From an uncultured bacterium (GTDB taxonomy: Bacteria > Verrucomicrobiota > Kiritimatiellia > CAIKKV01): 25,134 nt of DNA. The first letter of the stretch is position 1. The number at the start of each line of letters is the position of its first letter. Shown one piece after another: positions 3,402-19,995 of this stretch. The notes under the pieces are model-generated. The model saw nothing but the letters and a program-made list of their open reading frames with translations, was not told the origin of the DNA and did no database searches. The stretch spans positions 1 through 25,134 of the forward strand of contig CAIKKV010000660.1 in the NCBI GenBank assembly GCA_903828035.1. The letters run 5' to 3'. The translations under genes and the position numbers were made by a program.

Positions 3402-5075
3402 ATGTCCATCTCCAACGCCCTTGTCTACCAGGCCGCCTGCTCGTGGCGCAACCAGCTCCGGCTGTTGCGCCACGATTCGCGGTTCAAGGTGTTTTTCATC
3501 GGCCTGGTTTTCACCGCCTTTTTCCTGGGCATCCGGCTCCTCTTCCTCAGCAGCTTCCGGTTCATGGACGACCTGGGCGGGCTGAGCTCGCTGATCATCA
3601 GCCATCTCTTCGCCCTCTTCTTCCTGGGGTTGGGGCTCATGATGGTGGTCTCGGGCATCGTCACCTCCTACTCCACGCTCTACGACTCGCCGGAAGTCCC
3701 CTTCCTCCTGACCACCCCCGCCACGCCCCGGCAGATCGTGATGGGGCGGGTCGCCGAGTCCATCCTGCTCTCGTCGTGGGCCTTCTTCTTCATCATTATC
3801 CCCTTCATCGCCGCCTACCAGGCGCACAAGGGGCTCTCGCCGCTCTTCCTGCTCTGGTCGCTGCTCTTCGCCGTCCCCTTCCTGGTCCTCACCGCCGGCC
3901 TGGGCTCCCTGCTCGTGCTGGCCGCGCTGCGCTGGATTCCCCGCGGCCGCAGCCTCCTCGCGGCCGCTCTGATCGTCCTGGCCCTGGCCGGGGTGGCGAC
4001 GGTGCTGATCCTGCTGGGCCGCTACCGCCATGCGGAGTCGGAGGAGGTGTTCGTGCTGACCAACCTGGTGCCCGGCATGAAAGCCGCCTCCCAGCCGTTC
4101 TGGCCGAGCTGGTGGATGTCGGAGGGCATCATGGCCGGCTCCCGCGGCCTCTGGGGGCGCGGGCTGCTCTTCCTCCTGCTGCTCACCTCCCACGCGCTGC
4201 TGGTGCTGACCGTCATTGAAGAGCTGGGCGCGGCCGCCTTCTATGAATCCTGGCAGCGCGCCACAGGCGAGTCGGCCTGGGGCCGCCGGGCGCCCATCCT
4301 GCTGGCGGGCCTGGAGCGGGCGGCGGCGCGGCTGCTCCCGCCGGACCTGCGCGCCCTGGCGTTCAAGGACATGCGCACCTTCCTGCGCGACCCGGCCCAG
4401 TGGGCGCAGAGCCTGATTTTCTTCGGCCTGCTGGGGCTCTACTTCTTCAACCTGCGCACGTTCCGCTACAACCTGATGCCCGAGGTGTGGCGTAGTTTCA
4501 TCGCCTTCCTCAACGTGTTCAGCGTCTCGGCGGTCCTCTGTTCGCTGGGCGCGCGGTTCGTCTACCCCCAGCTCAGCCTCGAGGGGCACGGCTTCTGGAT
4601 CCTGAACCTGGCGCCCACCACGCCCCGCCGCATCCTGTTCGGCAAGTTCGCCCTGTCGGCCCTGGCCATGCTGCTGATCAGCCTGGCACTGGTGCTTCTT
4701 TCCACGACGATGCTCGAGGTGACCACCCCCGTCCGGCTGGTCACGCTGGGCGTGGGGCTGGCGGTGCCGGTCGCCGTGGCGGGCCTCTCCACCGGCCTGG
4801 GCGCGCTGTTCATGGACCTGCGCGAGCGGAATCCGGCGGCCATCGTCTCGGGCTTCGGCGGCACGCTCAACCTGGTGCTCTCCCTCGCCTACATGCTCCT
4901 CGCCATCCTGCCCTTCGCCGCGCTGTTCCACCAGTCCCTGCTGGGCCGCCTGAGCCCCCCCGTGTTCCACCGCGGCGTCGCCGCCGCCTCGCTCTGGTGC
5001 CTCGCCCTCACGGCCGCCGCCGCCGTCCTCCCCCTCTTCCTCGCCAACCGCAGCCTCACCCGCCGCGATTATTGA
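3402..5075 (+). CDS. large polytopic membrane protein, putative ABC exporter permease
   Basis: This 557-aa integral membrane protein has about a dozen hydrophobic segments (for example 29-50, 62-90, 121-140, 148-177, 184-206, 254-273, 335-349, 364-385, 415-436, 445-470, 485-510, 526-547). The pattern 'LLTTPATPRQIVMGRVAES' (102-120) is typical of ABC-2-like and 'putative ABC exporter' permeases. It recurs as LNLAPTTPRRILFGKFALS (401-419), so the protein is an internal duplication. A cytoplasmic segment, FKDMRTFLRDPAQWAQS (321-337), precedes the second half. No ATP-binding subunit is encoded nearby, so it must pair with a distant ATPase or act otherwise. The start lies 6 bp after the previous stop with no clear SD, suggesting translational coupling. 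Substrate is unknown. Confidence 0.72.
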   Translation: MSISNALVYQAACSWRNQLRLLRHDSRFKVFFIGLVFTAFFLGIRLLFLSSFRFMDDLGGLSSLIISHLFALFFLGLGLMMVVSGIVTSYSTLYDSPEVPFLLTTPATPRQIVMGRVAESILLSSWAFFFIIIPFIAAYQAHKGLSPLFLLWSLLFAVPFLVLTAGLGSLLVLAALRWIPRGRSLLAAALIVLALAGVATVLILLGRYRHAESEEVFVLTNLVPGMKAASQPFWPSWWMSEGIMAGSRGLWGRGLLFLLLLTSHALLVLTVIEELGAAAFYESWQRATGESAWGRRAPILLAGLERAAARLLPPDLRALAFKDMRTFLRDPAQWAQSLIFFGLLGLYFFNLRTFRYNLMPEVWRSFIAFLNVFSVSAVLCSLGARFVYPQLSLEGHGFWILNLAPTTPRRILFGKFALSALAMLLISLALVLLSTTMLEVTTPVRLVTLGVGLAVPVAVAGLSTGLGALFMDLRERNPAAIVSGFGGTLNLVLSLAYMLLAILPFAALFHQSLLGRLSPPVFHRGVAAASLWCLALTAAAAVLPLFLANRSLTRRDY

Positions 5076-5108
5076 CCCGCTTTGGCTGCAAGACAGATTG
5101 CCCGTCGG

Positions 5109-5332
5109 GTTGCTGCGTTTCGGCGTTAAGGCGAGGCCGCTTTCGGGCGGATCCGCCTTCAGACTTCGGCGTCGGGGCACCAGCCCACGCCGCCTCGTCT
5201 TCAGGCGGCTGCGCCTCGAAATCGACTCACGCCTTTCCGCTGATCGAAACGCAGCAACACCCTGGCCATCGCGCGCCCGCGGGTCTGCCGACCACGCTCG
5301 GGCGGCGCGCGATTGGATTCTCGATCAATCGC
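5109..5332 (-). repeat. structured repeat unit L (divergent copy, minus strand)
   Basis: Read on the minus strand from 5332 to 5109 (224 nt), the unit has three stems. Stem 1 is GCGATTG/CAATCGC (5309-5315 with 5326-5332). Stem 2 is TCGCGCGCC...GGGCGCGCGA (arms 5300-5312 and 5269-5278, loop 21 nt). Stem 3 is a 14-bp perfect long-range stem, GTTGCTGCGTTTCG with CGAAACGCAGCAAC (5109-5122 and 5245-5258). Conserved blocks shared with unit R are TTTCGATCAG, CGATTTCG-GGC-CAGCCG, GATC-GCCCGAAAGCG-CC. A 22-codon open frame runs from an ATG right after stem 2 (5269 to 5201, MARVLLRFDQRK...). Confidence 0.8.
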
Positions 5333-5368
5333 CCGACAACAAGCTACGCAATAGCACATTTTTGAGGC

Positions 5369-5593
5369 GGGCTCTTGCGGAAGCCCTCTCGCGCGCCGCC
5401 CATGTGAGCGAGAGCGAACAGGGCGCGCGATGGCTAAGTCGTTATTCCATTTCGATCAGGCGAAAATGGGCGAGGCGATTTCGTGGCTCAGCCGGCTCCC
5501 GGCGAGGTGAGCAGGCCTCGTGGCCGCGAACCTCCAGCCGAAAGCCGGATCAGCCCGAAAGCGACCGCCCATTGGCGCCCGAAATGGAATAAC
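5369..5593 (+). repeat. structured repeat unit R (divergent copy, plus strand)
   Basis: This 225-nt unit is homologous to unit L and points the opposite way, 36 bp away. Stem 1 is GGGCT/AGCCC (5369-5373 with 5382-5386). Stem 2 is TCGCGCGCCGCCC...GGGCGCGCGA (5389-5401 with 5421-5430, loop 19 nt). Stem 3 is GTTATTCCATTTCG with CGAAATGGAATAAC (5441-5454 and 5580-5593), 14 bp and perfect. The outer part of stem 3 differs from unit L on both sides yet still pairs. A 26-codon open frame starts at 5430 (MAKSLFHFDQAK..., stop 5508-5510). The remaining non-coding sequence 5076-5108 and 5594-5648 shows nothing else. Confidence 0.8.
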
Positions 5594-5648
5594 CCGCCGC
5601 GTATCCGCCACCCTGTCCCCACCAAAGATCACACGCCATTATCGCGCC

Positions 5649-5677
5649 TTGTATCGCGAAAGAAGATTTGCCATACT
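5649..5677 (+). promoter_or_regulatory. predicted promoter of the sensor kinase/NamZ/MurU-AmgK operon
   Basis: TTGTAT (5649-5654) and CATACT (5672-5677, 4 of 6 consensus) are separated by 17 bp. This predicts a start near 5684 and a leader of about 30 nt, with an SD GGAAAGG at 5697-5703. Confidence 0.45.
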
Positions 5678-5713: not shown

Positions 5714-7648
5714 ATGGCCGGCATACGCATCCTCCTGGTGGAAGACAATCCCGCCATTGCCGCGGAGATCAAGGCCTCCCTCGAAAAGCTGGGCTACGAC
5801 GTCCACCCCCCCTTCCGCAACGGCAAGGACGCCATCAAGGCCTCCTACGCCCACAAGCCCGACCTCGCCCTCGTCGACGCCCGCCTCAAGGGCCGCCCCA
5901 ACAGCATCGAAACCGGCGACAGCCTCCGCCACGCCCACCAGATCCCCGTCATCTTCATCGCCGAACACATCGACGACACCACCCTCGAGGACATCAAGAC
6001 CGCCGCCCTCTTCGGCTACATCCACCACCCCTTCGAAAAGACCGACCTGAAGATCGCCATCGAGGTGGCCCTCTTCCGCCACCGCTCCGAGCGCGTCCTC
6101 GAGGAAAACCGCCGGTGGTTCGCCACCGCCCTCGACTCGATCGGCGACGGCGTCATCGCCGCCGGCCGCGACGGCGTCATCACCTACATGAACCCCACGG
6201 CCGAGGCCATCACGCTGTGGAAGAAAAAGGACGCCGTCGGACGCCGCCTCGAGGAGCTCGGCGTCACCCAGCACGCCGAAACGAACGAGCCGGTCGAGGT
6301 GATCGGCATGAAAACGCTGCGCAACGGCCTCCCCGAAGGCGACGACGCCCGCGTCTTCGCCTTCCTCGATCGCAACGGCCTCCGCAAAGACATCCTCGCC
6401 TCCTCCTCCCCCATCCTCTCGCCCAGCGGCGTGGTCGAGGGCGTCATCATCGTCATCCACGACGTCACCAGCCGCCGCATCCACGAGCGCCACCACCACA
6501 GCATCGAGAAGATGGAGGTGCTCGGCAAGCTGTCCAGCACCGTCGCCCACGAGTTCAGCACCCTCTTCGGCGTCATCACCGGGTACGCCTCCTCCCTGAT
6601 CGCCAGCCTGGCCAGCAACACCCCCGCCTACGAGGACGCGCAGAAGCTGCTCGACGCCGCGCGCCACGGGCAGGACCTGACCCGCCGCATCCTCGTCATC
6701 GCCCGCGCCAGCAACGCCGAGGGCGACATCCGGCTCCAGACCGTCTCCCTCCGCCAGACGATCCGGCGCGCCATTGAAAACACGCACGACACCCTGGCCC
6801 GCAACCAGGTCGAGATCAAGTTCCAGGAATCGGAGCACATGCCCTCCGTCATGGCCGATCCCACCCAGCTGGTCGACGTGCTGATGGACTTCTTCTACAA
6901 CGCCGCCGAAGCCATGCCCGCCGGCGGCGCCATCAAGGTGGCCGTCCAGGACCAGATGGTCAAGCGCCCCGACGTGAAGGCCAACCCCAAGGCGGCCAGC
7001 GGCCCCTACGCCGTCATCCGCATCACCGACTCCGGCTGCGGCATCGACCCCGACGTGCTGGAGCGCATCTTCGAGCCGTTCTTCACGACCAAGAAAAACC
7101 GCGGCGTGGGGCTGGGGCTGGCCGTGGCCAACAGCGCCATCCTCGGCTACGGCGGCTGGATCCGCGTCCGCAGCAAGGTCGACGAAGGCACCACCTTCCA
7201 CCTCTTTATCCCCATCGCCGCCCCCAAGGCCGCCGGCGTTCTCCATCATGACAAGGCGCCCCTCTTCCTCCTGATCGATCACGAAACCGACCTGCTCAAC
7301 GAGACGGCCGCCATCCTCAAGGCCGAAGGCTTCCGGGTGCAGACCGCCGAAACAGCCTCCGACGGCCTGGCCCTCTACAAGAAGAATCCCGACGCCTTTT
7401 CCCTCTGCATCGTCGACGCCATCATGCCCGACATGGAAACCGGCGAGATGACGCGCAAGCTGCTGGAGGCCAAGCCCGGCACCCCGCTCATCATCACCTC
7501 CGGCTTCTCGCGCGACTACATGCGGCGGTTCATGCCCCACAGCGAGTGGGCCTTCATCCAGAAGCCGGTGGAGCGCGAGGCCCTGCTCACGGCCATCACC
7601 CGCCTGCTGGGCGACGAGTCCGAGCCCCGCGAGACTCCCGCTCCATGA
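5714..7648 (+). CDS. hybrid sensor histidine kinase (REC-PAS-HisKA-HATPase-REC)
   Basis: This 644-aa soluble hybrid kinase has five parts. An N-terminal receiver (about 4-122) has phospho-acceptor D55 in LALVDARLKG. A PAS domain spans about 131-252. The H-box LSSTVAHEFSTLFGVITGYAS carries H279. The HATPase domain has N-box DFFYNAAEAM (N396), DSGCGI (439-444), FEPFFTTK and GVGLGLA (465-470). A C-terminal receiver (about 516-632) has D568, S596 and K617. No membrane segment or signal peptide is present, so it senses a cytoplasmic cue. The N-terminal receiver has A83 where Thr/Ser is usual and H104/H105 where the conserved Lys is usual, so it may not switch normally. The stop overlaps the NamZ start (ATGA), tying it to cell-wall salvage. 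No DNA-binding output is encoded. Confidence 0.9.
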   Translation: MAGIRILLVEDNPAIAAEIKASLEKLGYDVHPPFRNGKDAIKASYAHKPDLALVDARLKGRPNSIETGDSLRHAHQIPVIFIAEHIDDTTLEDIKTAALFGYIHHPFEKTDLKIAIEVALFRHRSERVLEENRRWFATALDSIGDGVIAAGRDGVITYMNPTAEAITLWKKKDAVGRRLEELGVTQHAETNEPVEVIGMKTLRNGLPEGDDARVFAFLDRNGLRKDILASSSPILSPSGVVEGVIIVIHDVTSRRIHERHHHSIEKMEVLGKLSSTVAHEFSTLFGVITGYASSLIASLASNTPAYEDAQKLLDAARHGQDLTRRILVIARASNAEGDIRLQTVSLRQTIRRAIENTHDTLARNQVEIKFQESEHMPSVMADPTQLVDVLMDFFYNAAEAMPAGGAIKVAVQDQMVKRPDVKANPKAASGPYAVIRITDSGCGIDPDVLERIFEPFFTTKKNRGVGLGLAVANSAILGYGGWIRVRSKVDEGTTFHLFIPIAAPKAAGVLHHDKAPLFLLIDHETDLLNETAAILKAEGFRVQTAETASDGLALYKKNPDAFSLCIVDAIMPDMETGEMTRKLLEAKPGTPLIITSGFSRDYMRRFMPHSEWAFIQKPVEREALLTAITRLLGDESEPRETPAP

Positions 7649-8808: not shown

Positions 8809-10733
8809 AACACCCCCGCCCCACCCAAGCTGTCATTCTCGCCGCCGGCCTGGCCACCCGCCTGCGGCCGCTGACCCAGCGGATGCCCAAGGCGTGCCTG
8901 CCCGTCTGGGGGCGCCCCGCCATCCACCATGTGCTGGACCTGCTGCAATCGTGGGGCGTCCGGGAGGCGCTCATCAACCTGCACCACGAGCCGCTGACCG
9001 TGCTGGAGACGGCGAGGGCCTGGTCCGGCCGCATCCGGCTGAACTTCTCCTTCGAGCCGCTGAAGCCCCTGGGCACCGGGGGCGCGCTCCGGCAGGGCGC
9101 CTGGTTCCTGCGCGACAAGCCCTTCTGGCTGATCAATGCCGACATCATGGCGGAGCTCGATCCCGCCCCCCTGATCAAGGCGTTTTATGGCCCGGCCAAA
9201 CCGCTGGCCGCCTTGTGGATGGTGCCGGATGCCGGCCCCCGCACGGTGGCGCTGAGCGGGGGGCTTGTCTCCAATTTCGCCGTGGCCAAGCCGGGCGCCC
9301 CGGGCACGGTCACCTTCAGCGGGCTGCACCTGGTTCATCCCGGGGTTCTCCGCTACCTGCCCCCCGAGCCCTTTTCCACGATTGTCGGCGCCTACCGCTC
9401 GGCCATCGCCGAGGGCCGCCCGGTGGCGGGGGTCGTCATTCCCGGGACCTACTGGGAAGACATCGGCATCCTGTCGGAATACCTGCGGGCGCATGCGGAA
9501 ATCGAAGCCGCCTGGAAAGCGGGAAAGCCGGGCGGGCGGCTGTACGATCCAAAAACGCCGGCCGTCCTCCGGGCGCTGAAGCGGCAGGGGGTGCGGGTCG
9601 ACGGATTTGTTTCCGCCGCGCCGGATGTCCGCGTGAGCCGCGGCGTGGCGCTGCGCAACTGCATCCTCTGGCCCGGCTCCCGCGTGGAGGCCGGCTCCCG
9701 GGTGGACGAGGCGGTCGTGGCCGAAGGCGTGCGGGTCCAGGGCGAGGTGACCGGCATGGCGGTCTCCGCCCGCGTGCTGCCGGAGGCCGGCGCCTTTCTC
9801 GAGGCCCACGGCTGGCCGGCCGATAAAACCGCGGCCCTGCCGCTGGGGCCGCGCGGCTCCGACCGCTCCTTCGCCCGCCTGCAATACAACGGGAACAGCG
9901 CCATCCTGGTTCAATACGGCCGGGAGCGCCATGAAAACACCCTCTACGCGGGCCACACCCGCTTTCTCCTCTCCCAGGACATCCGCGTGCCGCGGCTGAT
10001 GGGGCAGGATGCCCGCCGCCGGCAGCTGCTCTTCGAGGATGCCGGACGGCGCGACCTGCTGAGCGCGCTGGCGGGCGCCGGCGACGAGGAGCGGCTGGCG
10101 CTGTACCGGCCGGTGCTGGGACTGGTCGCGCGGCTCCACACCGCCGGCTCGCTCGCCGCGCACCACTCCCGCTTGCGGCTGGTGGCCGGTTTCTCCCCGA
10201 AGCTCTACCGGTGGGAGCGGCTCTACTTCGTCCATCACTTTTTGCAGAAGCGCCTGAAGCTGTCGCCCACGCAGACCACGCCGATCGCCGCCGACCTGCG
10301 GCGGCTCTCCTTGCGGCTGGAGGCGCTGCCGCGCGTGCTGATCCACCGCGACCTGCAATCGACCAACGTCATCCTCACGCCGGAGGGGCCGCTCCTGATC
10401 GACTACCAGGGCATGCGCTACGGCGCGGCGGCCTACGACCTCGCCTCCCTGCTGGCGGATCCGTATGTGTCGCTGGCCGAGGGGGAGCAGCGCCTCCTGC
10501 TGGACGACTACCGGCGCGAGGCGAAGCTGGACATGCCCGACGAGCTGTTCTGGACCGCCGCCATCCAGCGGCTGTCCCAGGCGCTGGGCGCCTATGCGCG
10601 GCTGGGCGCGAATCCCCCCACGGCGGGTTTTGCGAAACATATCCCCCCCGCTCTCGCCATGATGAAGCGGGCGGTCCGGCATGTGGAACCCGGCCTCGTC
10701 CCCAGCCTCGCCCGCTTCCTCGAAGGCACTTAG
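8805..10733 (+). CDS. fused MurU-like nucleotidyltransferase and AmgK-like sugar kinase
   Basis: This 642-aa two-domain protein has an N-terminal nucleotidyltransferase (about 8-240) with AVILAAGLATRLRPLT, K29 in MPKACLPVWGRP, GTGGAL (90-95) and the metal-binding NAD at 111-113. Hexapeptide-like turns follow (about 265-320), then an aminoglycoside-phosphotransferase-fold kinase (about 345-640) with GSDRSFARL (351-359), HRDLQSTNVIL (H514, D516, N521) and D533 in LLIDYQG. In Pseudomonas, AmgK phosphorylates MurNAc/GlcNAc at C1 and MurU converts MurNAc-1-P to UDP-MurNAc. The domains here match those two enzymes, and the upstream NamZ would supply MurNAc. The ATG overlaps the NamZ stop (ATGA). 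GlcNAc or another hexose as substrate remains possible. The fusion and domain order are directly visible; the pathway is inferred. Confidence 0.85.
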   Translation: MKHPRPTQAVILAAGLATRLRPLTQRMPKACLPVWGRPAIHHVLDLLQSWGVREALINLHHEPLTVLETARAWSGRIRLNFSFEPLKPLGTGGALRQGAWFLRDKPFWLINADIMAELDPAPLIKAFYGPAKPLAALWMVPDAGPRTVALSGGLVSNFAVAKPGAPGTVTFSGLHLVHPGVLRYLPPEPFSTIVGAYRSAIAEGRPVAGVVIPGTYWEDIGILSEYLRAHAEIEAAWKAGKPGGRLYDPKTPAVLRALKRQGVRVDGFVSAAPDVRVSRGVALRNCILWPGSRVEAGSRVDEAVVAEGVRVQGEVTGMAVSARVLPEAGAFLEAHGWPADKTAALPLGPRGSDRSFARLQYNGNSAILVQYGRERHENTLYAGHTRFLLSQDIRVPRLMGQDARRRQLLFEDAGRRDLLSALAGAGDEERLALYRPVLGLVARLHTAGSLAAHHSRLRLVAGFSPKLYRWERLYFVHHFLQKRLKLSPTQTTPIAADLRRLSLRLEALPRVLIHRDLQSTNVILTPEGPLLIDYQGMRYGAAAYDLASLLADPYVSLAEGEQRLLLDDYRREAKLDMPDELFWTAAIQRLSQALGAYARLGANPPTAGFAKHIPPALAMMKRAVRHVEPGLVPSLARFLEGT

Positions 10734-11156
10734 CTTTGATCCCGACGCTAAAGCGACTCGTCCTCAACATAGCCCTCTACCTCGAAAGCGTTTCGCTAAA
10801 GACTGAAACTGAAGAGACGCGAAGCGGGTGGCATTGACTCGGATTGAATCCGCGGGATCCGCGTTGATTTTCTTCTCTTCTCCGTGGCTTCGTGTGAACT
10901 TTTTCTTCAGCGGGGGTGCGGGGCGGCCCCGCCCATCTTCCCGTATCCGGTTTTCGTGTGGTTCGTGTTTTTCGTGGTTACTAATCATCGGGTTCATCGC
11001 GCCACGGTGTGGCGCTCCCACAAAAGGGCCCTACCTGAAACCCTCTCTTCTCCGCGTCTCCGCGCCTCCGCGTGATTCCCACCTTCATGCCCTTCATGTT
11101 CTTCATGGTTACGCGTTCCCGTCTATCGGCTTGATTTTTCCCTGATTTGGCGTACG
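10734..11156. repeat. non-coding gap with blocks of 8-9-nt periodic repeats
   Basis: No gene is supported here. The gap holds several short periodic blocks: ATCCGCGNN twice (10848-10865), TTCGTGNNN three times (10953-10979), CTCCGCGN three times with period 8 (11050-11073) and CTTCATGNN three times (11083-11109). Each block has a fixed 6-7-nt core and variable spacer bases. Similar 'CGAAG/ATGAAG' ladders occur in many environmental bacterial genomes. A small hairpin AGCG-TTT-CGCT (10787-10797) lies near the operon end but lacks a T-tract. Confidence 0.75.
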
Positions 11157-12139: not shown

Positions 12140-12149
12140 AAAGAGGCTC

Positions 12150-12187
12150 AGGGGCTTGCCCTGAGCGAAGTCGAAGGGTTCAACGGT
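12150..12187. repeat. third copy of the CCTGAGCGAAG dispersed repeat
   Basis: GGGCTTGCCCTGAGCGAAG-TCGAAGGGTTCAACGGTTC matches the tandem copies at 1571-1650 with a few changes. It fills the space between the convergent zinc-ribbon and CoaB genes. On the minus strand its edge supplies the last two codons and the TGA stop of the CoaB gene. Confidence 0.85.
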
Positions 12188-12818
12188 TCGCCAGTTGATC
12201 CTCGATCCACGCGACAATGCGGCGGCCGACCTCCAGCTTGCTCATCAGCGGGAGGCGCTCCACGCCGCTCTCGGCCACCAGGGAGACCCGGTTCGTCTCC
12301 ACGTCGAAGCCCGCGCCGGGCGCGGTCACGTCGTTCACCACCACCAGGTCGCAGTGCTTCTTGCGCCGCTTCCGCGCCGCCTCGGCCTCGAAATCGCCGC
12401 CCGTCTCCGCGGCAAAGCCCACGAAAATCCGCTCCCCCTTGTGCGCCGAGGCGCCGGCCAGGATGTCGGGCGTCTTCACCAGGCGCAGCACGGGCGCTGT
12501 CCCCATTTTCTTGATCTTCACGGGATTCACTTCCGCCGGCCGCCAGTCCGCCACGGCCGCGCACATCACCAGCGCCTCGCACGCCTCCAGGCGCGCCTGG
12601 ACCGCCGCCCGCATGTCCTCCGCGGAAACCACGGGGACCAGCAGCACGCCTTCGGGCGGGGGGATGGCGACGGGCCCGGAGATGAGCACCACCTCGTGGC
12701 CCCGCTCGACGGCGGCCCGGGCCACGGCGTAGCCCATGCGGCCGGAGGACCGGTTGCTGATGTAGCGCACGGGATCAATGGCTTCGCGGGTCGGCCCCGC
12801 CGTGACCAGGATCTTCAT
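12180..12818 (-). CDS. coaB: phosphopantothenate-cysteine ligase, stand-alone CoaB
   Basis: This 212-aa CoaB domain is without the CoaC decarboxylase that is fused to it in most bacteria. CoaB joins 4'-phosphopantothenate to cysteine using a nucleotide triphosphate in coenzyme A synthesis. Motifs are ILVTAGPTREAIDPVRYISN (3-22), SSGRMGYA, LVMCAAVADWRP (82-93), KIKKMG (101-106), VKTPDILA, VGFAAET and the NDVT loop (162-165). The ATG has GGAG 7 nt upstream. It lies 12 bp after the thymidylate-synthase-like gene on the same strand, so the two probably form one transcript. The stop codon falls inside a dispersed repeat, so the C-terminus may be slightly altered. CoaC must be encoded elsewhere. 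Confidence 0.92.
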   Translation of the reverse strand: MKILVTAGPTREAIDPVRYISNRSSGRMGYAVARAAVERGHEVVLISGPVAIPPPEGVLLVPVVSAEDMRAAVQARLEACEALVMCAAVADWRPAEVNPVKIKKMGTAPVLRLVKTPDILAGASAHKGERIFVGFAAETGGDFEAEAARKRRKKHCDLVVVNDVTAPGAGFDVETNRVSLVAESGVERLPLMSKLEVGRRIVAWIEDQLANR

Positions 12819-18737: not shown

Positions 18738-19157
18738 TCAGGGCGACTTGCGAATATAGATCGGCAGCTCGCCCGGCTTCTGCACCGTGAAGCCGCCTCC
18801 GGGCGATGGCCGCACATAGGTGGGAAGCTCGCCGGGGGTGGTGATGGTGAGGCCCCCGCCGGGCGACGGCCGCACATAGGCGGGAAGCTGGCCGGGGGTG
18901 AAAATGGTGCTCCCGCCCCCGGGCGAGGGACGGACGTAAACGGGGAGCTGGCCTGGCGCCATGATCGTCGACCCTCCGCCCGGACTGGGGTAGACGGTGG
19001 TGGGCAGTTTACCCGGCGTGAAGAGGGTCGTGCCGCCTCCGGGCGACGGACGCACATAGGTCGGAAGCTCGCCTGGCTTCTGAATGGTGTAGGATTGCGC
19101 CTGGAGCGACGCGGCCCACGCAAAGACTGCCAGCAGCGCTAAGTTCAAACCCTTCAT
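18738..19157 (-). CDS. secreted protein of six exact 20-residue repeats
   Basis: This 139-aa protein has a signal peptide at 1-20 (MKGLNLALLAVFAWAASLQA). The whole mature part is six tandem units of exactly 20 residues (21-40, 41-60, 61-80, 81-100, 101-120, 121-139) with no insertions. The consensus is GGxTIxxPGxLPxYVRPSPG. The first and last units both carry IQKPGELP/VQKPGELP, so the ends resemble each other. Alternating hydrophobic residues with a Pro-Gly turn in every unit suggest stacked beta hairpins or a small solenoid outside the cytoplasm. The start has GGAGAG 6 nt upstream and a 17-bp-spaced promoter. I cannot name the family. It is convergent with the CocE gene, 23 bp away. Confidence 0.82.
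   Translation of the reverse strand: MKGLNLALLAVFAWAASLQAQSYTIQKPGELPTYVRPSPGGGTTLFTPGKLPTTVYPSPGGGSTIMAPGQLPVYVRPSPGGGSTIFTPGQLPAYVRPSPGGGLTITTPGELPTYVRPSPGGGFTVQKPGELPIYIRKSP
18741..19097 (-). repeat. six in-phase 60-bp coding repeats
   Basis: The tandem 60-bp units encode the six 20-aa repeats. Sequence between units varies mostly at third positions and at a few set residues, so the array looks old and kept for the protein rather than freshly expanded. Confidence 0.85.
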
Positions 19158-19183
19158 GGCAGCTCTCCTTTCATCGTGTTCAC

Positions 19184-19212
19184 ATCTTACAGTCGCCGTA
19201 GCGCATAGCCAA
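19184..19212 (-). promoter_or_regulatory. predicted promoter of the 20-aa-repeat protein gene
   Basis: On the minus strand TTGGCT (19212-19207) and TAAGAT (19189-19184) are separated by 17 bp. The predicted start lies about 20 nt before the ATG at 19157. Confidence 0.5.
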
Positions 19213-19298
19213 TACCCAAATGGAAAGGCACCCAAATGGCAGGGCAAACACACCTTGTCATGATGCCGCACTGACTCCTGATGTACGGGTTGCATGAA

Positions 19299-19363
19299 GC
19301 GGGTTGCGCCGTTTCGATCAGCCCAAACGCGTCCGCTTGTTAACGCCGAAACGGCAAACCCGC
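19299..19363 (+). repeat. short (deleted) copy of the structured repeat family
   Basis: GCGGGTTGCGCCGTTTCG (19299-19316) pairs with CGAAACGGCAAACCCGC (19347-19363) with one small bulge, around a 30-nt loop. The left arm plus ATCAGC matches the 5' end of units L and R, and GATCAGCCCAAACGCG-CCGC...CGCCGAAACGG matches their 3' third. The middle is missing, with the join at GATCAG, which occurs twice in unit R. It lies between the acetyltransferase stop and the repeat-protein promoter. Confidence 0.75.
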
Positions 19364-19422: not shown

Positions 19423-19995
19423 TTATCCAGCCAGCGTTTTCTCCACCAGCGGATGCGGATAAATCCTGGCGTAGGCGGACCAGATCGCGCGGGCCCCTTC
19501 GGGCGCCAGATCGGGCGCAAAGTCGAAGTCCAGGTAGAGCTTGATGGCGCCGATGCGCTCAATGGCGGTGACCAGATACGCGCGATCATGCCACTGGGCC
19601 AGCACGCGCATGGCATAGGCCAGGCCGGCCCGCGCCAGCCCCTTGCCCTGGTGCGAGGGCCGCACCGCCACCCAATGAATCCGCCCGTAGTCCTGCCCGT
19701 TAAACTCCCGGTTGTACCAGGCGCTGATCGTGCCCACGCCCAGCCCGCGCGGATCGGTCAGGATGAAGCACCGGCCCGGAACGGCCGCCAGGTCGTCCCC
19801 GAAGGCTTTGCGGAACAGATCCGGCTGAACCGCGAAAAACGGCTCGGCGTCCATCTCGATATCGATCCACAGCCCGATATCATCCAGACTCATGGGCCGG
19901 ATGCTGTAGCCGGCAGGGAACAGGGGGGCCGGCAGGCCGTCCATATGCGGGCGGATCATGTTGACGCTATTGAGTTGCGGCTGGCTTGCGCTCAT
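19423..19995 (-). CDS. GNAT family N-acetyltransferase
   Basis: This 190-aa protein has the GNAT fold. After an N-terminal extension (1-28), YSIRPMSLDDIGLWIDIEMD opens the domain. GVGTISAWYN (strand 4), IHWVAVRPSHQGKGLARAGLA (acetyl-CoA-binding motif A, about 105-125) and IGAIKLYLDFDFAPDL (motif B, about 147-162) follow. The acceptor is not predictable; the motif fits small-molecule or ribosomal-protein acetyltransferases alike. It starts 3 bp after the PPIase stop, and its SD (AAAAGGA) lies within the end of the PPIase gene. The two are therefore one transcript. Confidence 0.87.
   Translation of the reverse strand: MSASQPQLNSVNMIRPHMDGLPAPLFPAGYSIRPMSLDDIGLWIDIEMDAEPFFAVQPDLFRKAFGDDLAAVPGRCFILTDPRGLGVGTISAWYNREFNGQDYGRIHWVAVRPSHQGKGLARAGLAYAMRVLAQWHDRAYLVTAIERIGAIKLYLDFDFAPDLAPEGARAIWSAYARIYPHPLVEKTLAG

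Follow-up and report, generated by a model that had tools for sequence, protein, structure and literature searches.

The current work indicates that positions 5109-5593 of the analysed stretch of DNA (25,134 nucleotides, hereafter the window) hold what are, on balance, probably two copies of a high-copy, non-autonomous and modular mobile element of hairpin DNA, similar to REPINs and BIMEs, which would insert as single-stranded DNA at the replication fork. In the related MAG "PVC group bacterium isolate MiH-14oct19-188" (hereafter G001) the element is dispersed in about 70 copies, resident copies decay, inverted doublets occur and orientation is tied to GC skew. The earlier note on this DNA had offered a structured RNA, a hairpin-DNA mobile element or the remains of one. 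The number of copies, their decay, their sporadic occurrence and the skew-linked orientation favour the mobile element, and the structured RNA has become less likely. A clearly less probable variant is a separate class of single-stranded DNA mobile element, made of tag-less, three-hairpin units of about 225 nt that would move only as a folded strand at the fork, singly or as an inverted doublet of about 485 nt, by an enzyme other than a cognate RAYT.

The two homologous, divergent units of about 225 nt that had been described from the sequence were confirmed by alignment of unit 2 (5369-5593, + strand) over its whole length with unit 1 (5109-5334, - strand), once the latter is read on the - strand. 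The limits of the blocks were set by comparison with other copies. Read 5' to 3', a small hairpin comes first in each unit, followed by a GC-rich stem (TCGCGCGCCGCCC...GGGCGCGCGA), a linker of 10 nt and a long hairpin of 150-153 nt (Table 1). A perfect 14-bp stem closes each long hairpin (5109-5122/5245-5258 and 5441-5454/5580-5593, both recovered as first reported), and the stem sequence is unlike between units 1 and 2. The nested inverted repeats were also found again, the inner at 5300-5312/5389-5401 (13 bp) and the outer at 5234-5278/5421-5465 (78% complementary), the latter including the previously noted 5265-5278/5421-5434; the whole doublet can be folded through both GC stems as one nested structure, which is this same nested repeat. 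Two details were revised. The spacer between the units exists, and other copies show that it measures 34 nt, not 36. The loop of about 20 nt ascribed to the GC stem is likewise present, and often contains a small stem of its own (GGTC-GGCA-GACC in unit 1, by eye).

Table 1. Coordinates of the divergent pair, the shortened third copy and the neighbouring genes in the window
Feature	Position	Strand	Remark
Unit 1 long hairpin (module C), 150-nt imperfect palindrome, closed by GTTGCTGCGTTTCG/CGAAACGCAGCAAC	5109..5258	-	140 bits with model R1, which includes this copy
Unit 1 linker, 10 nt, from GC stem to long hairpin	5259..5268	-	Spacing similar in other copies
Unit 1 5' module: small hairpin and GC stem TCGCGCGCCGCCC..GGGCGCGCGA, inner loop GGCA by eye	5269..5334	-	
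Central spacer of the divergent pair, 34 nt	5335..5368	.	Spacers of G001 pairs recur
Unit 2 5' module: small hairpin GGGCTCTTGCGGAAGCCC and GC stem, inner loop GAGA by eye	5369..5430	+	
Unit 2 linker, 10 nt	5431..5440	+	Spacing similar in other copies
Unit 2 long hairpin (module C), 153 nt, closed by GTTATTCCATTTCG/CGAAATGGAATAAC	5441..5593	+	154 bits with model R1, which includes this copy
Third, shortened copy: both ends of the long hairpin retained, middle absent	19303..19360	+	R1 E = 6e-5
Neighbouring gene, ABC transporter (PF16949)	3402..5075	+	G001 counterpart without a unit nearby (none in L001)
Neighbouring gene, response regulator / PAS / histidine-kinase ATPase	5714..7648	+	G001 counterpart on contig C20

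The ABC transporter gene of the window led to 80 loci in genome_contigs, the best of which (L001, 80% protein identity) belongs to G001. Many of the loci that follow it carry the names Kiritimatiellia, Lentisphaerae or Verrucomicrobia; G001 probably belongs to Kiritimatiellota, the host of the window is presumably a kiritimatiellote too, and the DNA of G001 is 67-82% identical to parts of the window. With unit 2 as DNA query, at least 49 hits were obtained in G001 (the best 40 of 96 candidates scored); G002 yielded two weak hits (E 0.17 and 0.6), G003 and G004 no hit. R1, a covariance model built from the long hairpins of 31 copies, gave at least 116 matches over both strands of G001, at about 70 places (the best 150 of 3673 candidates scored), and no match in G002, a family-mate of G001. 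Thus the covariance search of related genomes suggested in the earlier note shows that further copies exist. From 138 matches, 71 best-strand places were collected in 1.12 Mb of G001 loci; duplicates on the opposite strand were removed, as were four matches that were short or weak (L175, L155 9367, L151 7013 and L093). Some of the 71 places, at contig ends, could be halves of a single copy. The units are chiefly intergenic: at a coding fraction of 0.80, overlap with a crudely predicted gene exceeds 75 nt in 6 of the 71.

Among 345 genomes of the class, R1 matched three, namely G001, G036 (at least 7 matches) and G039 (at least one), and in an even draw of 387 genomes across the phylum G001 alone matched. 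Both scans used strict filters with the best 7-8 candidates per genome scored, so that diverged members may escape them. The element of G036 and G039 has the same build (a small and a long hairpin, about 228 nt by eye), and its core is homologous to the 71 units (best 54 nt at 80%, E 7e-8). Plasmids and phages yielded short pieces only (36 records, best E 0.2, and 7 records, best E 3, respectively), and E. coli genomes gave no match to the units. A short-core DNA pattern had no hit in viral_contigs or genome_contigs; it was too strict, because G001 does carry copies. The units of the window and of loci L101, L104 and L109 have no Rfam 15 match at gathering score, the one tRNA in L104 lying away from the unit. 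At E<=1 nothing was found for window 5050-5650, and loci L192, L111 and L119 returned only MIR8622 on L192 (33.5 bits against a gathering score of 197). Neither the Rfam searches nor, for the host's group, the open-licence PMC papers in the ranked listings show such an element, in agreement with the first impression that no named element has these blocks.

The fold is far stronger than in shuffled sequences, with z = -13.3 for RNA folding of 5109-5593 (0 of 100 shuffles) and z = -9.5 for DNA folding of 5441-5593 (0 of 200). In an alignment of 31 long hairpins, standard pairing holds in 97.6% of 1483 cells, and changes in both partners are seen for 36 of the 48 pairs. On all five pairing measures the 500 shuffles fall short of the alignment, a test that kinship among the sequences can by itself beat. 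Sliding the partners by 1-3 columns, which preserves kinship, lowers pairing to 36-46%, the structure itself having been derived from the same 31 hairpins. The structure of the long hairpin is under selection, and the question of whether pairing is kept in further copies is thereby answered in favour of structure. The alignments A2 (31 of 36 rows, five partial rows removed) and A3 (27 of 31, four rows with inserted or deleted loops removed) favour intact copies by this choice of rows, and alignment A4 was fitted to the model structure.

The length of the long hairpin is almost fixed (150-155 nt in the 31), and the units measure 211-253 nt, mostly 224-230. The GC stem is near-invariant, unlike the long hairpin, with its 8 arm pairs retained in 26 or 27 of 27 copies. 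By pattern it was found upstream in 52 of the 71 copies, and the small inner stem could be scored in 50, with the loops GACA (16), GCGA (7), GGCA (7), GATA (4), GGA (3) and others (13).

Important information on the history of the copies may be found in the frequencies of their pair types. Non-majority types were tabulated in 65 of the 71 copies, five truncated rows and one outlier being left out, a selection that again leans toward intact copies. Types present in a single copy comprise 11 Watson-Crick, 12 G-U and 31 broken pairs; those in two copies 5, 2 and 11; those in three to five copies 10, 5 and 9; and those in six or more copies 28, 1 and 1. Among 66 copies, those at least 94% identical differ in their stems by 106 broken pairs, 25 G-U steps and 1 double change (82 non-independent comparisons), and those at least 90% identical by 189, 55 and 72 (137 comparisons, likewise non-independent). 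The types private to one copy are mostly broken or G-U (43 of 54) and those in six or more copies almost all Watson-Crick (28 of 30); therefore resident copies decay, and the hairpin is kept in the lineages that spread. Inserted copies drift while lineages with an intact hairpin spread, which is the pattern of a mobile element. Such decay is not expected of a host RNA or a host site needed at every place.

A multi-copy family of structured non-coding RNA acting after transcription is, for this and other reasons, unlikely. It would account well for the very strong covariation of the long hairpin, and some inner loops of the GC stem are of the GNRA type (GCGA 7, GAAA 1 and GAGA 1 of 50). The commonest loops, however, GACA (16/50) and GGCA (7), are not; broken pairs accumulate in single copies, the units are without an Rfam match, and their orientation tracks GC skew, not the flanking genes. 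The composition of the pairs is more favourable to RNA. In non-majority positions, top-strand G-U cells exceed A-C cells (56 vs 20), as do the corresponding types (20 vs 13, p 0.30; 6 vs 1 among types in at least three copies). This excess leans toward folding of the top strand, as RNA or as DNA. G-U pairs make up 61 of 3066 paired cells in the long hairpins of 66 copies; their rarity had been considered as proof of DNA pairing, an argument dropped after a control with seven tRNAs of the same genome (3 of 80) and the comparison of G-U with A-C. Frequency spectra and orientation together would make it possible to tell hairpin-DNA mobile elements apart from structured RNAs, a distinction for which covariation by itself is insufficient.

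In G001 the top strand of solitary units lies on the C-rich strand in 56 of 59 cases (27+2 / 1+29, Fisher p = 2e-13), and the three exceptions are all near contig ends. The 12 units of six divergent pairs, having one of each orientation by definition, stand outside this count. With crude ORF calls, skew at codon position 3 agrees with unit orientation in 50 of 57 cases for + genes and 52 of 57 for - genes; for orientation against the strand of the left gene p is 0.55, against that of the right gene 0.26, and against the gene majority a borderline 0.07. Composition is not the source of the pattern, because the top strand of the units, which sits on the C-rich strand, is itself rich in G (mean skew +0.07, with negative values in 2 of 71). 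Two words, one C-rich (p 2e-10) and one G-rich (p 7e-9), likewise track skew, which is what composition alone would give and makes them an unfair control for a long insert; for a short repeat the result was borderline (p 0.07), none of its 12 places lying apart from units. The window follows the rule (negative skew, copies at 5369+ and 19303+), as does G039 (2 of 2). The bias was not reproduced on the short contigs of G036, with 8 vs 5 loci by codon-position-3 skew and 7 vs 6 by total skew. The G-rich strand is usually the leading strand. On this assumption the lagging-strand template, exposed as a single strand, is the unit's bottom strand; the lean toward the top strand therefore counts against folding of the bottom strand.

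Eight divergent pairs were found, one of them partial: that of the window, and six plus the partial one in G001. The doublets measure 482-503 nt, and 59 of the 71 G001 copies lie outside full divergent pairs. The spacers of the G001 pairs fall into three groups (z 13-21 within groups and 4-11 for many pairs between groups, the latter scores being raised because the spacers as cut take in small hairpins). Since the spacers recur, doublets seem to be copied as such.

Two places in the window can be followed into G001. The shortened copy at 19303 adjoins the 3' end of a - strand gene (ORF 19423-19995), whose counterpart on G001 contig C13 (71% DNA identity) has a unit end directly past the gene end, oriented alike relative to the gene. 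There the unit is truncated by a RAYT-like ORF of 166 aa that is accompanied by three copies of a REP-like repeat of its own (GGCCCTGACGGAGCAGGGCCCTCCGAACGGTAGC...; L187, 1302-2080). Most simply, the unit is an old insertion common to the window and G001. The genes beside the 5109-5593 pair have their counterparts on separate G001 contigs, the ABC gene on C14 and the response-regulator gene on C20, neither with a unit beside it; upstream of the C20 counterpart lies a coding region, MiaB-like by eye, instead of a unit. With no G001 counterpart of the pair and its neighbours on different contigs, the pair therefore stands at a synteny break, and is probably younger than the split or arrived with a rearrangement.

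These histories also bear on a chromosomal DNA site kept by the host and oriented along the replichores, such as a boundary, a binding site for gyrase or nucleoid proteins, or a segregation signal resembling KOPS. The skew-linked orientation, the intergenic placement and the one place common to the window and G001 are all compatible with it. We nevertheless regard it as improbable: resident copies decay, occurrence in the class is sporadic (3/345 genomes), and the G001 genes corresponding to the neighbours of the window pair are both without a unit.

As a mobile element of hairpin DNA, the unit would fold as single-stranded DNA at the replication fork and be recognised in this form, and a strand-specific endonuclease of the HUH/Y1 type would move it in trans; the identity of the enzyme and of the folding strand is conjecture. 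Movement of this kind is proposed for REP sequences and documented for IS200/IS605, as given in parts of PMC6006769. No mobilising gene was found: Y1 genes (PF01797) occur in all four genomes tested, including the element-free G002, and reverse transcriptase (PF00078) does not follow it either (G001 2, G036 1, G002 0, G039 0). Four of five Y1 genes inspected closely adjoin repeats of their own (L187 and L236 by tool, L184 and L185 by eye), and R1 found no unit in the loci of four G001 Y1 genes. The inverted flanks of the L184 gene, of the GGGGTCAGG type, and the GGTGTCAGG variant at L185 (both by eye) recall the TIRYT flanks quoted in an excerpt of PMC6006769. In G039 (C106, L236 10273-11466) a Y1 transposase gene, 0.9 kb away from a unit, is flanked on both sides by inverted repeats that belong to it (AGGGTGAAGTCTATACTATTTACTTTTG).

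With REPINs and BIMEs the element shares dispersed extragenic hairpins, inverted doublets, compensatory changes and decaying singlets, as far as these are described in the portions of PMC3116915, PMC6006769 and PMC3733652 used here. The definition of REPINs, in which REP doublets form hairpins, drew on evidence of a similar kind, with compensatory changes among it (PMC3116915, in part). Their dimensions are different: REPs of 20-40 nt (PMC3733652, in part) stand against units of about 225 nt, and REPIN doublets of 71 or 110 bp (PMC3116915, in part) against 482-503 nt. The foot GTAG/GTGG or CGTC of REPs and REPINs was seen by eye in neither the consensus of 31 long hairpins nor that of 27 5' modules. 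A RAYT flanked by the same repeats, another REPIN feature, was not found with intact units at the four G001 Y1 genes or in the parts of G036 and G039 inspected. The copying of a doublet as a unit is suggested by the recurring spacers of the G001 pairs, yet most copies here are single. Thus, in its working the element appears most like REPINs and BIMEs, but by this comparison it would lack three of their features: the foot tag, the unit size and a RAYT flanked by intact units. If the favoured reading is true, this is a REPIN-like population whose units exceed severalfold the size of those in the cited REP papers, and two signatures at the population level, Watson-Crick pairing almost only in spreading lineages and skew-linked orientation, make single-strand transposition testable from sequence.

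IS200/IS605 elements are similar in that insertion is tied to one strand of the fork and hairpins lie near the ends (PMC6006769, in part). Their orientation bias along the fork has a parallel in G001 (56/59), and was not reproduced in G036. They contain tnpA (Y1), whereas the present units are too short, non-coding and without a transposase gene; at the G001 and G039 places inspected no pair of units brackets a Y1 gene. Unlike in IS200/IS605, the hairpins almost fill the unit. For ERIC/RU-type and other MITE-like palindromes we know of neither strand bias nor multi-hairpin anatomy. They are likewise non-coding intergenic repeats, of 100-170 nt in the parts of PMC2759123 and PMC2229807 drawn upon.

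That the units are MITEs of an ordinary DDE transposon, moved as double strands by cut-and-paste between terminal inverted repeats, appears rather remote. Small size, non-coding nature, dispersal and terminal stems in the form of inverted repeats are indeed what such elements would show. However, so strong an orientation preference relative to replication is not expected of them, the interior of the hairpin is constrained by structure, and no target duplication was recognised by eye in the listed flanks, from which neither an empty allele nor a clean insertion boundary was obtained.

Integron attC sites are long bulged hairpins used as single strands, with the ends RYYYAAC...GTTRRRY. An integron-like attC or other folded single-strand site of a tyrosine recombinase would fit the hairpins in this respect, but is very improbable: most copies end GTTGCGG...CCGCAAC, so that GTT...AAC is the reverse of the attC ends, none of four genomes passes the integron-integrase cut-off (TIGR02249), and the tyrosine-recombinase-like proteins found below the cut-off in all four also occur in 14 of 14 controls. 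The related idea of gene cassettes was abandoned, since in G001 the genes found between two pairs of same-strand neighbours, 1.6 kb apart, look ordinary (ORFs by eye).

Several other repeats were observed near the units. A short repeat like CCCTGAGCGGAGTCGAAGGGC is present in the window at 1568-1663 and 12142-12197, and is inserted inside the GC stem of several G001 units (for example L095 17821-17909 and L103 15789-15853). A second palindrome, of the form TGCGGCTCGGACGGAGCCTCGCCCTCCA, often follows within about 70 nt downstream of the long hairpin (L098, L104, L105, L145, L150, L154, L163 and others, by eye), and is either a further module or a separate repeat. Head-to-tail tandem units with a period of about 349 nt occur at contig ends (L110 1-900 and L143, C28, 1-502), which suggests short arrays that broke the assembly. 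In G036, diverged units occupy two successive gaps of an apparent trp gene cluster (C43, L229 7900-10500, by eye), at which a small hairpin with a GCA loop (GTGCGCAGCAC) also recurs. The same genome has a canonical GTAG-tagged REP (GTAGCCGGCCTCGGTGAGGCCGG; L193 and L194, with a variant in L195), distinct from the present element. Within the window itself, 60-nt-period repeats at 18759-19089 lie inside the - strand ORF 18738-19295 and correspond to protein repeats of about 20 residues, and the long gap at 10733-11150 contains phrase-like repeats such as TTCGTGTGGTTCGTGTTTTTCGTGGTTA.
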